Shown in pieces: positions 28,531-34,428 of a stretch of DNA of 34,692 bases. Position 1 is the first letter of the stretch; each line of letters starts with the position of its first letter. The notes beneath the pieces are model-generated. The model was not told where the DNA came from. It saw only the letters and a program-made list of their open reading frames with translations, and made no database searches. The position numbers and the translations under genes were made by a program. Origin of the DNA: Myxococcaceae bacterium (GTDB lineage Bacteria; Myxococcota; Myxococcia; Myxococcales; Myxococcaceae); the NCBI GenBank assembly GCA_019694575.1, contig JAIBBR010000049.1:1-34692 (forward strand). Direction: 5' to 3'.

Positions 28531-29441
28531 GGGGTTGCTCCCGCGGCGAAACCGAACAGCTCGAAGCACGTCTCACGCAATTCAGCGCGCTCGGCTTGCA
28601 CCGAGACCCGCACCGTCGCTCCGGCGGGTGAGCCCGTCGTCAACGTGCGCTGCAGCCCTTCGAGCCCGGGTTGAATCGACACGCCGCCCAGCCGCGTGCC
28701 GCCGCTTTCTAAGTCTAAATACGTGACGCTCAAAGGCCGGTCGTGAAACCAGCCGCGGTCCCAAATCATGCCGGCTTGCAGGCGCCACGCGGCCACTTCG
28801 GGCACGCCGGTGAATTCGGCGACCAGCTTGGTGGAGCCTCCGGGTGGGTAGAACCGCACGCAGCGCCTGGGTTGAAATTTGATGTCGTGCCATTCAACTG
28901 TCGCCGCTCCGCCATTGGGGCAGCGGTGCTGGGCGCCGTCCCACTGGCAGGCTTGTTGGCTGCCGTCGGCACTTTGCAAATACACCCGCGCTTGGGCCAA
29001 CGCGTCGGTCGCCGAGAACGCCACCGGGCGTGCACGGCCATTTTGATAGAGCGACAAACGCAAAGGGCCGAACGAGCGCTCTGTTCCCACTGGGGGGCGC
29101 TTGGCGTCGAACGCGGCGTGAAAGGCGGCCATGCCCGCGCGCGGCAACTTGGGCTGGGCAATCACCCAAATGCGGGAGTGCGTTTCTAAATCGTCTGCGT
29201 CAGAGCCGATGTACCCAACAACGGGTACACGTTCGGGAACGAATAGGCGGGCGTGCTCGGTCCACCACGGTGCGAGCAACACCACGTCACCCGGTTGCGC
29301 TTCAGCGTCGATGACTTGCGAAAGAGCGCGAAAGTCGTCTTCTTTCGGAAGCTGCGCGGGCAGCCACAGCTGAAACCACAAGCACCAGGCGCCGACGGCC
29401 ACCAAGAGCGCGCCGATGAGCCGCTGCCCCCAACCGTTCAC
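28527..29441 (-). CDS. Membrane-anchored exported protein paired with the glycosyltransferase
   Basis: 304 aa. One N-terminal transmembrane segment (about 7-28, LIGALLVAVGAWCLWFQLWLP) and then an extracytoplasmic region. The region begins with a segment (PGDVVLLAPWWTEHARLFVP) resembling the soluble tails found on GT39-like enzymes and ends in a beta-sandwich-like part with a few Cys. No name can be given. It overlaps both neighbours by 4 bp (GTGA), so it is translationally coupled to carG upstream and to the glycosyltransferase downstream. A helper or substrate-binding role for that enzyme is inferred from context only. Confidence 0.75.
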   Translation of the reverse strand: MNGWGQRLIGALLVAVGAWCLWFQLWLPAQLPKEDDFRALSQVIDAEAQPGDVVLLAPWWTEHARLFVPERVPVVGYIGSDADDLETHSRIWVIAQPKLPRAGMAAFHAAFDAKRPPVGTERSFGPLRLSLYQNGRARPVAFSATDALAQARVYLQSADGSQQACQWDGAQHRCPNGGAATVEWHDIKFQPRRCVRFYPPGGSTKLVAEFTGVPEVAAWRLQAGMIWDRGWFHDRPLSVTYLDLESGGTRLGGVSIQPGLEGLQRTLTTGSPAGATVRVSVQAERAELRETCFELFGFAAGATP

Positions 29442-29950
29442 GACTTGGCCAGACGAATCTTCTTCTCGCTGGCTTCACGGCAGAAGGTGCAGAAGATGGC
29501 TTCACCCTCGAGAAACGAGGGAGTCCACGGGGGGTACATTGAGCAGCGGTGATCTAAGCAGTGGTGCACGCCCCAGGTATGCCCGATTTCTTGCAGCGCG
29601 TAACGGGCGAGCAGGGTGGCGTTGTCGGTGACATTCTTGATGTGGGCGCTGCTCACCAAGGCGCGTTGGTGATCGTATTCACTGACACCGGTGGTGGGTA
29701 TTTCAATGCCCGACACTTTGCGCGGCGCGAGCTTCTTGGCTGTCAGGTACAGCACTTTGTCGTCTTGGTACGCCTGCACCACGGGCGCTTTGACGAGCAG
29801 CTCATGGGCCGAATAGGGCTCGGCGAAGCCCGCGGGCAATGGCACCATGCCCACGTGCTCGGTGCCGACCGCGAACGCCTGGTACAGCACTTTGCAGAGC
29901 TGTTTAACCAGCGCGGGCTCGTATTCATCGAAAGTGGCGACGCGAATCAT
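29438..29950 (-). CDS. carG: CarG, archaemetzincin-like zinc protein partner of CarD
   Basis: 170 aa. It has the archaemetzincin signature with exact spacing: Q120-E121-x2-H124-x2-G127-x3-C131-x4-C136-x-M138-x17-C... ending C154-x2-C157. In proteases of the family the first position is His; here it is Gln (codon CAA), so a zinc ligand is missing although the Glu is kept. All four cysteines are present. In M. xanthus, CarG lies directly downstream of carD, binds two zincs structurally, has no protease activity, does not bind DNA and acts through the CarD N-terminal domain. The same gene order here (5 nt after carD) supports the assignment. Expected role: co-regulator with CarD in light, starvation and developmental responses. 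Confidence 0.9.
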   Translation of the reverse strand: MIRVATFDEYEPALVKQLCKVLYQAFAVGTEHVGMVPLPAGFAEPYSAHELLVKAPVVQAYQDDKVLYLTAKKLAPRKVSGIEIPTTGVSEYDHQRALVSSAHIKNVTDNATLLARYALQEIGHTWGVHHCLDHRCSMYPPWTPSFLEGEAIFCTFCREASEKKIRLAKS

Positions 29951-29955
29951 GGGGT

Positions 29956-30897
29956 CTATTTCTTCTTCTTGGCGGCGGGTTTCTTCTTCGCAGGCGCGGC
30001 TTTCGCGGCAGCCTTGGCCAAAGCGGCCTTGCCGGCAGCAGCCGCCTTTTTCGGAGCGGCCGTGGTCTTCTTGCCCGTAGCAGCGAAAGCCGCAGCCTTC
30101 GGTTCTTTGGGGGCTTTGAACGCTTTGGGTTCTTTCGGGGCCTTGGTGGGTTTTGCGCTGTCAGCAGCCTTGGCTTTCTTTCCCGCCGCGGCTGCTTTTG
30201 GCGCCTCTTCACCTTCGTCGCTTTCTTCAGCGTTCTCTTCGCTGGTCTCTTCGCTTGCCCCGGCGCCTTCTTCGCTGTCATCGAGCGGCACGTCGCCGTC
30301 TAAGCCCATCAAGTCGTCGCCGATCGCCAAATCGTCTTCTCCGCCCTGCGCGCGAAATTCTTCGGCGGTGCGTTTAGGGCGTTCTTTACCGGGAGCAAAG
30401 AGCACTACGTCCATCATGTCTTCGGCGTCGCATGCGGGCACATTGAGCGCGGCTGAAATTTCAGTCACCAGCAAGTGCCGGGCATCGTTATAGAGCGCGC
30501 GTTCTTTCGGCGGCAGTGGGCGCAATTCAGAGAGCACCTGCAGGCCCTTCACCACTTCAGCCAGGCCGATGAGGCCGCCGGTGGCCATGCGTTCAACGTT
30601 GGTGCGGGCGCGCGCTTTCCAGTCGAGCGACGCTTTGTCGCTGTCTGACTTCAAGAAGGCAATGACGCCCTGCACTTCTGAGGCGTCGCCTATTTTGCGA
30701 ATGCCGATAGACGCGACCTTCGCCTGTGGCACGCGAATGGTTGAAGAAGGGTCTTCTTCAGGTTGCAGCAAGAAGAAAGAATGTTTCTGATTGGCGATTT
30801 CCATCGCCTGCACGCCCGTGACTTTGCACAGGCCCTGATTGGGATAAACGACGCGGTCACCCACTGCGAGCAACAGCGCTTTTTGCGCTTCGGCCAT
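29956..30897 (-). CDS. carD: CarD, global transcription regulator with histone H1-like tail
   Basis: 313 aa. The N-terminal RNA polymerase- and CarG-binding domain (1 to about 180: VGDRVVYPNQGLCKV, LDWKARARTN with W93, GLAEVVKGLQVLSELRPLP) is followed by a conserved KERPKRTAEEF stretch. Then comes an acidic region (186-231, Asp/Glu runs) and a basic Lys/Ala/Pro tail (234-313) with KAPKEPKA repeats ending AKKKPAAKKKK. M. xanthus CarD has an HMGA tail with RGRP AT-hooks. None are seen here; the tail is H1-like, as described for Anaeromyxobacter CarD and shown to be functionally equivalent. ATG 30897 follows GAGG closely. carG begins 5 nt after the stop. Confidence 0.93.
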   Translation of the reverse strand: MAEAQKALLLAVGDRVVYPNQGLCKVTGVQAMEIANQKHSFFLLQPEEDPSSTIRVPQAKVASIGIRKIGDASEVQGVIAFLKSDSDKASLDWKARARTNVERMATGGLIGLAEVVKGLQVLSELRPLPPKERALYNDARHLLVTEISAALNVPACDAEDMMDVVLFAPGKERPKRTAEEFRAQGGEDDLAIGDDLMGLDGDVPLDDSEEGAGASEETSEENAEESDEGEEAPKAAAAGKKAKAADSAKPTKAPKEPKAFKAPKEPKAAAFAATGKKTTAAPKKAAAAGKAALAKAAAKAAPAKKKPAAKKKK

Positions 30898-31226: not shown

Positions 31227-33341
31227 TTATTGCCGCTCGAACTGAAGGGTCAGCGAGCCGGCGTTGTCAGTGACATCGCTATCGGGAAAAGCGAAAAACA
31301 CGCGGTCCGCGCCGGTCAAGTTGAGCGGCAACCCTTTTCGCAGCACCACCGGCGGTTTGCCTTCCATAAAAAGCAGAACCTCTTCGAGCAGGTCGCCTTT
31401 GCGCCAATGCGCGTCGCCCAGCTGCAAAGACACGCGGTAGAGCGCGTGGGGGTCTAACCCCGCTGCTTCGAGCTTTTGACTGTCAGCGAGGGTGAGGTGG
31501 TGCTTCTGGGTGTTGAGCTTCAACAGGGTACTCGTGCCCGAGGGTGCTTCTTGCAGTTTCACCCGCACTGTTTGTCCCGGGCCGTCGCGCGTCTCGGCGA
31601 AGAACAGCCGCAGGGTTGACGCCTGCTCAATGACCACCGGCACATCGCCCAGCGCCCCCCAACCCCGTTCGAGCGATGACGTGCCTTCGAGCGCGAAGAA
31701 AACGCGCGGGCTGTCGGCCGGCGCAGATTCGAGCGACAGGCGATAGCGCTTGTTACTCTTGAGCTTGGCCTGCACCGACTCTTTTTTGGGCACGGTGAAC
31801 GCGTGGGTGGCGGCGTGGAGCTTGAAAAGCAAGGTGCGTGGAGCCGCTTTGGCTTCAGGTGCTTCGGGCTTTTGCGGTGGTGGTACAGGCTCGAGCGTGG
31901 CGTGAAGCACCACTTTGCGCTCATTCGACGCGGGCAGCGTTTTCGACCAAGGCTGCATGCCGGGCGCAGTCAGCTTTAAGTCATGGGTCTGCCCTGGGGT
32001 GAGGTTCTCGATGGCGAGCGGGGTTCGGGCAGGCGCCTTGCGGCCGTCGATGACGACTTCAGCGCCGGGCGGGCTCGAAGTGAGCTCCAGCGTTTGTACC
32101 GAGACGCTGGCCCAACCCAGCACCGCTGCCGCTGCCAAAATCGCCGCGGTGAGGGGCAAGCCCACGAAGTACGGCCACATCGCTTTGTCGACAGCGCGCG
32201 CGGTGGTGCTGGCGCTGTGGGTGTCAGAATTAGGCAGCGCGTTGCCCAACGTGCTGGCGTCGTCGTCGTGCTGCAGTGCTTTCTGCCCTGACAAGGTGTC
32301 GGCGGTGAGCGGCGAGGCGGCCCAAGGGTCAGGCAGCGGTGTGCGCCATTGCGGCACCTGCTCTAAGAATTCACGAGACAGCGTCACCGTGCGGCCGAGT
32401 TGCAAAAGCTCGCTCTCGAAGAGCATGCCTTGAAACTGCGCCAACGAGCTGACCGAGAACGTGGGCGCGCTGGCGTAGAGGTAACCTGAAAGCGCCTGTT
32501 GAAATGCTTCAGCCGAGGGGTAACGGTCTTCGCGGTTGTTGGCGAGCGCGGTAAGTAAAATGCGCTCCAGCGCGGGTGGAATGTTCGGGTTCAACGTTCG
32601 GGGCGGGGTGAGCTGGCCCTCGATGATTTTCGAGAGCACTTCCATCATGCGGCCCTGAAACGGCAGCTGCCCGCACACCATTTCGTAGAGCACGATGCCG
32701 GCTGAAAACACGTCAGTGCGGGCGTCGAGCTCTTTGGCGCGCGCCTGTTCAGGAGAAAAGTACGAGTACTTGCCTTTCACGGCTCCGACTTCGGTTTCAC
32801 CGCCGGTGGCATGGCGCGCCTTGGCGATGCCGAAGTCGACGATTTTCACTTGGCCTTCGTAGCCAATGAGAATGTTCTGCGGCGACACGTCGCGGTGAAT
32901 GATGCGCAGCGGTTCACCTTGCTCGTCGACGCGGGTGTGCGCGTAGTGCAACCCTTTGAGCAGCTCGATGGTGAGATACGACGCGATGGGAAAAGGAATC
33001 GCCGGTATGTCGACCGCTTTGGCGCGCTTCATCACCGCCGAGAGCGGTTGGCCCTCGACCAATTCCATCGCGAGAAAGTAGTCGCCTGAAATTTCGCCGA
33101 AGTCGAAGACCTGGGCGATGTTGCCGTGCGAGAGGCCGATGGCAATTTTGGCCTCGTTGGTGAACATGGTGAGAAACGCCGCGTTCACCGCGAAGTGCGG
33201 CAAAATGCGCTTGATGACGACTTGTTTGGTGACGCCTTCGGCCGGTGAATAGCGAGCGCGAAAAATCTCTGCCATGCCGCCAATGGCGATGCGCGAGAGC
33301 AGCTCGTATTTTCCAAAAGTCGACTCGTAAGGGGCGGACAA
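31227..33341 (-). CDS. Membrane Ser/Thr protein kinase with PEGA domain
   Basis: 704 aa. Cytoplasmic Hanks-type kinase (about 9-290): Gly-rich loop IAIGGMAE, K44, E63, catalytic HRDVSPQN (149-156) and DFG (169-171), all intact. A linker (about 290-387) leads to one transmembrane helix (389-413) and then an extracytoplasmic PEGA domain (about 415-480: SSPPGAEVVIDGRKAPARTP). Beyond that is a beta-rich sensor-like tail with repeated 'RVFFALEG/RVFFAFPD' segments. I chose TTG 33341, 7 nt after GGAG; it puts the kinase domain at once in the cytoplasm. A longer frame to GTG/ATG near 33458 adds a hydrophobic N-terminus and overlaps the divergent gene. Substrates unknown; such kinases are numerous in myxobacteria. 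Confidence 0.9.
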   Translation of the reverse strand: MSAPYESTFGKYELLSRIAIGGMAEIFRARYSPAEGVTKQVVIKRILPHFAVNAAFLTMFTNEAKIAIGLSHGNIAQVFDFGEISGDYFLAMELVEGQPLSAVMKRAKAVDIPAIPFPIASYLTIELLKGLHYAHTRVDEQGEPLRIIHRDVSPQNILIGYEGQVKIVDFGIAKARHATGGETEVGAVKGKYSYFSPEQARAKELDARTDVFSAGIVLYEMVCGQLPFQGRMMEVLSKIIEGQLTPPRTLNPNIPPALERILLTALANNREDRYPSAEAFQQALSGYLYASAPTFSVSSLAQFQGMLFESELLQLGRTVTLSREFLEQVPQWRTPLPDPWAASPLTADTLSGQKALQHDDDASTLGNALPNSDTHSASTTARAVDKAMWPYFVGLPLTAAILAAAAVLGWASVSVQTLELTSSPPGAEVVIDGRKAPARTPLAIENLTPGQTHDLKLTAPGMQPWSKTLPASNERKVVLHATLEPVPPPQKPEAPEAKAAPRTLLFKLHAATHAFTVPKKESVQAKLKSNKRYRLSLESAPADSPRVFFALEGTSSLERGWGALGDVPVVIEQASTLRLFFAETRDGPGQTVRVKLQEAPSGTSTLLKLNTQKHHLTLADSQKLEAAGLDPHALYRVSLQLGDAHWRKGDLLEEVLLFMEGKPPVVLRKGLPLNLTGADRVFFAFPDSDVTDNAGSLTLQFERQ

Positions 33342-33414
33342 CCTGAGGCTCCGTGCAGCGCCCGAAAATAACACGCAGGCGGCAAAAAAAACCCACCTGT
33401 GAAAAGGGCGGCTG

Positions 33415-33432
33415 TGCATTTGCAAAAATGCA
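33415..33432. promoter_or_regulatory. Inverted repeat in the kinase/lipoprotein divergent region
   Basis: TGCATTT (33415-33421) and AAATGCA (33426-33432) form a 7-bp inverted repeat with a 4-nt loop in the 115-bp space between the kinase start (33341) and the lipoprotein start (33457). It could be a shared operator; no -35/-10 pair was convincing. Confidence 0.35.
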
Positions 33433-33456
33433 GCGGAGCCAGGCATAAGGCGCGCC

Positions 33457-34428
33457 ATGATTCAAAATGGTCGTCGCGCGTTGCCGGTGTTTTCGTTGTC
33501 GTTCATGGTGCTTTCTGCGTGCGGTACCGGCGTCGAGACGGGCCATGAAGCTGACGACGCGCTCGACACCGCGAACGGCGAATTGCGCACCACCTATGCC
33601 GACCTGACAGAAACGTTGAGCGAGACCGAACTCGAGAAGTGGTTAGAGGTGAAGCGCGCGTTGCTCGAAGGTTTCGACAATATCTGTGGCGACACCCTTT
33701 GCGGCGGTGACTTTTCGAATTTGTCGACGGTGCGTCTGCAGTGCTCGGCCACCACCGCGGCGAAGAAAATGAAAGACTGCACGTGGGTGCTGGGTGGCAG
33801 CATTGGTTATGTCAACGGCACTACGGGCCAAATTGGCGGCGAATCACGCGCCTTCACCTGCAAAATTCCTATCAAGGGCACGGCGAAAACGCTGCTCAAC
33901 ACCTTGATTGCCGCGGGCAACCGGGCATTGAACACGCCGTTGCCGCAGACGAACCAGTCTTTCTATGACGGCTTGGTGGCCTGTTTCGAGGGTGTGGTGG
34001 GCTCGCCCATACCTTCGGTGGAGCAGCCCGTTTACGACGAGCTGCAAGATTACTTCTGGGCCGCTGATGAAGCGCAGGGCCTGTCGTGGGTGCAAACGCG
34101 CCGCAAGTTGAACAAAGGCTTCGACGAAGTGTGCGGTGACTCGTTCTGCGAAGGTGAGTACCCCAACATGACGGGTTTGGGTTTCACCTGCTCGGTGAAG
34201 CGCAGCTCGGGCTACGTGACGAAGTGCCAGTGGACCTTCGTCGCCGTCGACAGCTACGTCGATGCGAAGGGCGCCATCGTCGCTAACACCAAAACGTACC
34301 AGTGCCCGGTTGAAATTCGCGCATACGCCAAGAAGCTCGCGGCGACGCTAAATGTTGACGACCCGTTGCACGCCACCTTGCCGGGGCGCAACACGTCGCT
34401 CTACGACGCGTTGACGGGTTGCCTTTGA
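33457..34428 (+). CDS. Lipoprotein with a duplicated six-Cys domain
   Basis: 323 aa. Lipobox VLSAC (C22). Two homologous domains: residues about 65-178 and 212-323, with cysteines C77, C82, C96, C108, C135, C176 and C226, C231, C245, C257, C283, C322. The spacing (5, 14, 12, 26-27, 39-41) is nearly identical. Matching landmarks are GFDNICGDTLC/GFDEVCGDSFC, DCTW/KCQW and SFYDGLVAC/SLYDALTGC. Presumably three disulfides per domain. I do not recognise the fold. ATG 33457 has AAGG six bases upstream. It is divergent from the kinase gene. Confidence 0.82.
   Translation: MIQNGRRALPVFSLSFMVLSACGTGVETGHEADDALDTANGELRTTYADLTETLSETELEKWLEVKRALLEGFDNICGDTLCGGDFSNLSTVRLQCSATTAAKKMKDCTWVLGGSIGYVNGTTGQIGGESRAFTCKIPIKGTAKTLLNTLIAAGNRALNTPLPQTNQSFYDGLVACFEGVVGSPIPSVEQPVYDELQDYFWAADEAQGLSWVQTRRKLNKGFDEVCGDSFCEGEYPNMTGLGFTCSVKRSSGYVTKCQWTFVAVDSYVDAKGAIVANTKTYQCPVEIRAYAKKLAATLNVDDPLHATLPGRNTSLYDALTGCL

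Follow-up and report, generated by a model that had tools for sequence, protein, structure and literature searches.

CarG clearly exemplifies how a protease can become a transcription cofactor. The Myxococcus xanthus protein carries the motif HQx2Hx2Ex2HCx4CxMx16Cx2C, has two zinc ions coordinated, and exhibits neither DNA binding nor protease activity (PMC8156234). It binds CarD, which makes the contact via residues 61-179, and the two proteins operate as one regulatory unit (PMC4374960). PMC3427221, citing Penalver-Mellado 2006, states that CarG variants carrying single Ser substitutions at each of the four Cys residues fail to complement in vivo. A single Glu-to-Gln change in the M. xanthus protein has served to explain the inactivity of CarG, and the family survey described below makes this change one end state among many.

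Two other sets of proteins have motifs that bear on this problem. The non-proteolytic NF033824 family (Myxo_non_zincin) consists, like CarG, of myxobacterial archaemetzincin relatives with a broken motif. The Volvox carteri protein VMP3 is described in PMC7717551 (citing Heitzer & Hallmann 2002) as an active metzincin that bears QEXXHXXGXXH and prefers copper. VMP3 therefore has the same motif as the CarG protein examined here, but it is an extracellular-matrix protease whose relation to CarG is no closer than the metzincin clan.

A carD-carG locus encoding a QExxH protein

The DNA analyzed (the window, 34,692 nucleotides) derives from a member of the family-level group of Myxococcus, designated f1. 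On the minus strand, carD (29956..30897, 313 aa) is directly followed by carG (29438..29950, 170 aa), with a gap of 5 nt between the carD stop and the carG ATG, and the two genes form one operon. The carD call is based on PF02559 and PF21095, and its product comprises an RNAP-interacting domain, a C-terminal CarD domain, an acidic stretch, and a K/A/P-rich tail. Just upstream of carD, the same strand encodes a Ser/Thr protein kinase with a PEGA domain (31227-33458, minus strand). The carG call draws on the ORF, the PF07998 score, orthologues, and a structure model. Its product, which contains ALQEIGHTWGVHHCLDHRCSMYPPWTPSFLEGEAIFCTFC, is a CarG orthologue that falls inside the CarG clade and separate from archaemetzincin paralogues (100% SH-aLRT). 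The protein is single-copy, and a search of the window's own genome returned no second CarG copy. That genome does encode another archaemetzincin relative, with the broken motif HQxxHxxGxxY (L124:1453-1974, plus strand; G000:C14), which resembles NF033824 members, so the organism has two archaemetzincin-like proteins changed at different residues.

The motif stretch of the window CarG (ARYALQEIGHTWGVHHCLDHRCSMYPPWTPSFLEGEAIFCTFC) reads Q120-E121-x2-H124-x2-G127-x2-H130-C131-x4-C136-x-M138-x15-C154-x2-C157, all encoded on the minus strand. Gln120 (codon CAA, 29591..29593) replaces the first zinc-ligand His, as is evident from the sequence and from relatives, and is followed by Glu121 (29588..29590), where metzincins have their catalytic general base. 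His124 (29579..29581) and His130 (29561..29563) occupy the second and third zinc-ligand positions, where His is found in 98 and 104 of the 107 CarG proteins surveyed, and Gly127 (29570..29572) is the Gly of HExxHxxGxxH that is Asp or Glu in most CarG proteins. The segment from C131 through C157 (29480..29560) includes the Met-turn and the structural Cys cluster, wherein all four Cys residues of the His/Cys-rich zinc segment of CarG are present.

Window and M. xanthus CarG proteins are both 170 aa long, are 49% identical over their full length, and share the carD-carG order, the Cys cluster, and the third-position His. However, M. xanthus CarG has H120-Q121 and E127 where the window protein has Q120-E121 and G127. 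The CarG of strain AM003 (L120) reads HQLGHLWELHHC with a Met-to-Cys spacing of x15, whereas the review prints x16 (PMC8156234); among the orthologues, the Met138-to-Cys154 spacing is x15 in 67 of 107 and x16 in the other 40. The archaemetzincins of family M54 (AmzA of Methanopyrus and Archaeoglobus; PMC3427221) have in common with the window CarG the predicted fold and the HExxHxxGxxHC-x4-C-x-M-C-x2-C layout. In contrast, the window protein does not carry the active-type M54 signature HExxHxxGxxHC-x4-C-x-M-x17-C-x2-C, as its first ligand His is Gln and its spacing is x15, and its PF07998 score of 20.4 bits lies below the cut-off of 24.4. NF033824 is a separate family that the window CarG matches at 23.1 bits against a cut-off of 250, and carD was found next to none of the NF033824-type homologues tested.

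A structure model was produced with AlphaFold2 from five sequences, with a mean pLDDT of 69 and values below 50 for residues 137-170, the part that holds the Cys cluster. The model matched the archaemetzincins 2x7m, 3lmc, and 3zvs, and archaemetzincins were its only strong matches, with Foldseek E values of 6.4e-6 (2x7m) and 3.3e-4 (3lmc) and VIA Z values of 11.6-11.8 compared with about 9 for other metzincins. The model predicts an archaemetzincin fold.

Much of the first-pass annotation of this locus stands. The call of CarG is borne out by orthology and carD adjacency, and the reading of Gln at position 120 with Glu at 121 agrees with the ORF translation and the codon CAA. The spacing had been called exact with Met-x17-Cys, which is incorrect given the x15 between Met138 and Cys154. 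The statement that M. xanthus CarG has Gln for the catalytic Glu proved accurate, as HQ appears both in the AM003 sequence and in PMC8156234, and the proposed separate loss of His120 in the window lineage agrees with M. xanthus having lost the Glu instead. Two ways in which that reading could fail had been named. However, M. xanthus has His rather than Gln at the His position, and a sequencing error at codon 120 is excluded because relatives share the codon and QExxHxxGxxHC recurs in 15 further genomes from related genera.

Catalytic positions and Cys cluster across the family

A survey of 195 genomes of the phylum, 142 of which had a match, was thinned of near-identical genomes to give 107 distinct CarG proteins, comprising that of the window and 106 orthologues from Myxococcota. 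carD lies upstream of carG at each of the 104 orthologue loci whose DNA extends far enough, as evidenced by its N-terminal domain (103 loci) or its K/A/P-rich tail (L105). The seemingly missing carD at L105 is an artefact of a short locus, in which this tail is present. Contig BNCN01000001.1 (L121), deposited under the name Comamonas sp. KCTC 72670, encodes a CarG of the Myxococcus type that hardly differs from the M. xanthus protein, and the genome is probably myxobacterial and mislabelled.

At least one of H120, E121, H124, and H130 is missing in 104 of the 107 proteins; the full set occurs only in L014 and L108 (with G127) and in L071 (with D127). Pairs at positions 120 and 121 include HQ, QE, QQ, HA, HH, HY, HF, HD, AE, RE, and others. 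When sites 120, 121, 124, 127, and 130 are read together, HQHEH represents the M. xanthus type, QEHGH the window type (16 sequences), and QQHGH a further type (11 sequences), and additional states are HQTEH, AEHGH, SEHGH, HAHDH, HFHDH, HYHDH, HHHDH, HDHDH, HERGH, HEAES, RERDS, RQHGH, and QHFGR. Ten different residues (E, Q, A, Y, H, F, V, D, L, and S) occupy site 121, and Gln121 is present in only 45 of 107 orthologues and therefore does not define the CarG family. Site 127 is Gly in 36, Glu in 39, and Asp in 32 of the proteins.

The Cys cluster behaves differently. C131 and C136 are invariant in 107 of 107 proteins, and the only replacement of the other two is Asp, found at C154 in nine proteins and at C157 in eight, but never at both. 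Change counts, taken as the parsimony minimum per site on a CarD plus CarG tree built without the motif columns, are 9, 18, 6, 14, and 2 for sites 120, 121, 124, 127, and 130, respectively. The corresponding values are 0 for both C131 and C136, 2 for M138, and 3 for both C154 and C157, with a median of 15 over all sites. The catalytic-Glu site varies about as freely as the average site, whereas the Cys cluster ranks with the most constrained positions. These counts support the earlier proposal of selection for the Cys zinc cluster and not for catalysis. Throughout the family, the protease center has decayed by many routes and the catalytic site has dissolved, while the adjoining Cys zinc cluster is almost fixed.

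Cys-to-Asp replacement of the third or fourth cluster Cys occurs in several lineages. Asp is found at position 154 in L022, L030, L032, L078, L080, L081, L084, L086, and L092 and at position 157 in L085, L096, L097, L098, L100, L102, L104, and L106, and the Asp may serve as a zinc ligand.

Coupled residues and the origin of Glu121

Most CarG proteins (67 of 107) have His120, lack Glu121, and carry Asp or Glu at 127, whereas Gly127 is found in 32 of the 34 that lack His120; L037 and L091 are the exceptions. An independent-pairs sign test of His120 against acidic 127 gave only concordant informative pairs (2-4 to 0), too few for significance, and a likelihood test was added for this reason. A dependent model of the two traits outperforms the independent model (LR 16.2), and 120 simulations that lacked coupling never reached this value, with one tree assumed. 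The same test gave no significant coupling between E121 and acidic 127 or between H120 and E121. Two helix turns separate residue 120 from residue 127, and it is plausible that they make contact or share a metal.

These results bear on the view that plain neutral drift explains the data and that residues 120, 121, and 127 carry no meaning in this or any clade. The near-median change at site 121 and the ten residues found there are consistent with that view. Nevertheless, we consider it unlikely given the coupling of position 120 with acidic 127, the near fixation of His130, and the fixity of sites 121 and 127 in the window clade. The coupling and the fixity instead suggest a local structural constraint.

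A maximum likelihood tree was built from the CarD N terminus and CarG with columns 120, 121, 124, 127, and 130 removed, and ancestry was assessed by counting changes of single traits. The window protein resides in a clade of 20 QE, AE, or SE proteins, with one HE protein (support 98/100), that is nested in two successively larger sets, of 24 proteins (100/81) and 26 proteins (99/82), whose remaining members are HQ or HV. The outgroup of this nest (L061) is also HQ. Position 120 is Gln, Ala, Ser, or His among the 20 clade members, and E121, H124, G127, and H130 are invariant in all of them, meaning that decay in this clade is confined to position 120. QE-type CarG is a genuine variant of a known cofactor and extends across a clade. 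We found no report of this variant in the open papers searched, a set that does not include the principal papers of 2006 and 2009 or the figures in supplements.

Nesting of the QE clade among HQ proteins makes it more likely, on these trait counts, that Glu121 was regained rather than kept. Within f1 and f7 together, Glu121 requires one gain, or five losses if regain is barred, and Gly127 requires two gains as opposed to eight losses. The alternative is independent loss from an intact HE ancestor, wherein Glu121 was always kept in the window lineage and Gln121 arose separately elsewhere. Intact or near-intact HE pairs scattered in L071, L073, L066, L068, and L108 would fit this history, and the topology for its cheaper version, a single clade of non-QE f1 proteins, is not rejected by the AU test (p 0.353). 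Under that topology, the advantage of regain shrinks to one versus about two steps by our own count. On the best tree, however, the alternative demands at least five separate losses of Glu121 in f1 and f7, in addition to the eight losses of Gly127, and we regard it as possible though the less probable history. Thus, regain is favored but not proven because the AU test leaves the rival topology unrejected.

A share test of clade fixity at site 121 yields P 0.028 (uncorrected), a value that is the fourth lowest of 170 sites and is thus not significant after correction. Elsewhere in the family, sites 121 and 127 are fast (17 and 13 changes). The fixity in the window clade provides mild evidence that the catalytic site is not simply decaying.

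Function of the window CarG and its partner

We infer from the M. xanthus work that the window CarG binds CarD, holds zinc at its Cys site, and is inactive as a peptidase; our own analysis concerns the sequence, orthology, the operon with carD, the residue distribution, the tree, and the change counts. The explanation that we hold to be quite probable is that this protein is the obligate CarD partner and a domesticated archaemetzincin, in which the fold and the Cys zinc site are kept and the catalytic metal site has become dispensable and has drifted. CarG would then be the non-DNA-binding scaffold subunit of a CarD-CarG complex at ECF sigma factor promoters. The fold and the zinc site formed by C131, C136, C154, and C157 would be maintained, and the ancestral catalytic metal site would drift along many routes. 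In the QE clade, His120 would have changed to Gln, and in some members to Ala, to Ser, or back to His. An ancestor with Gln121 and an acidic residue at 127 most likely preceded the return of Glu121 and Gly127, which would now be fixed.

Two statements of the first-pass annotation fare less well on this point. Its remark that the Glu is kept conflicts with the nesting among Gln121 proteins described above, which favors regain even though the rival topology is not rejected. Its term "protease-dead" goes beyond what QExxH can show, since VMP3, with QEXXHXXGXXH, is active with copper (PMC7717551). The QExxHxxGxxH motif alone would thus be no proof of a dead enzyme, and this case serves as a warning against reading lost activity from a motif. 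Loss of peptidase activity in the window CarG is nonetheless likely, though not certain, because some members have Ala or Ser at 120, the protein is cytoplasmic, and the M. xanthus homologue is inactive. The window CarG most likely does not function as a zinc peptidase.

If the QE clade instead holds a working metal site, Gln120 or a water molecule together with His124 and His130 would bind the metal, perhaps copper, and Glu121 would act as the base, with peptidase activity or metal sensing as the outcome. The four residues fixed in 20 of 20 members, the VMP3 precedent, and the complete motif of L014 (HEVAHTYGLHHC) all point in this direction. However, L062, L063, and L065 have Ala or Ser at 120 with neighboring residues unchanged, the statistical enrichment is weak, and all other CarG lineages do without the catalytic site. 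Moreover, free copper is scarce in the cytoplasm, where CarG acts. We judge a working site to be improbable. Also improbable is the fuller scenario of a pseudoprotease lineage that regained its catalytic Glu and motif Gly. In this scenario, selection would now maintain a metal site of Gln, His, and His in a transcription cofactor, perhaps for copper- or zinc-dependent activity or sensing, and L014 would have restored the complete motif. The pairs HQ, QE, QQ, HA, HE, and others form a natural series for asking which metal site CarD-CarG needs.

L014 belongs to the QE clade yet has the full HExxHxxGxxHC motif, and its codon is CAC where its sister L010 has CAG. It is possible that L014 is a natural revertant.

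The CarD partner also varies. The window CarD has no RGRP repeats, and hence no AT-hooks, and has a K/A/P-rich, histone H1-like tail, even though three RGRP repeats are present in CarD from L002 and L004, which are closely related. A 27-genome survey reported H1-like CarD tails only in Anaeromyxobacter and Vulgatibacter (PMC9304148). On our tree, the presence of AT-hooks in CarD changes at least six times.
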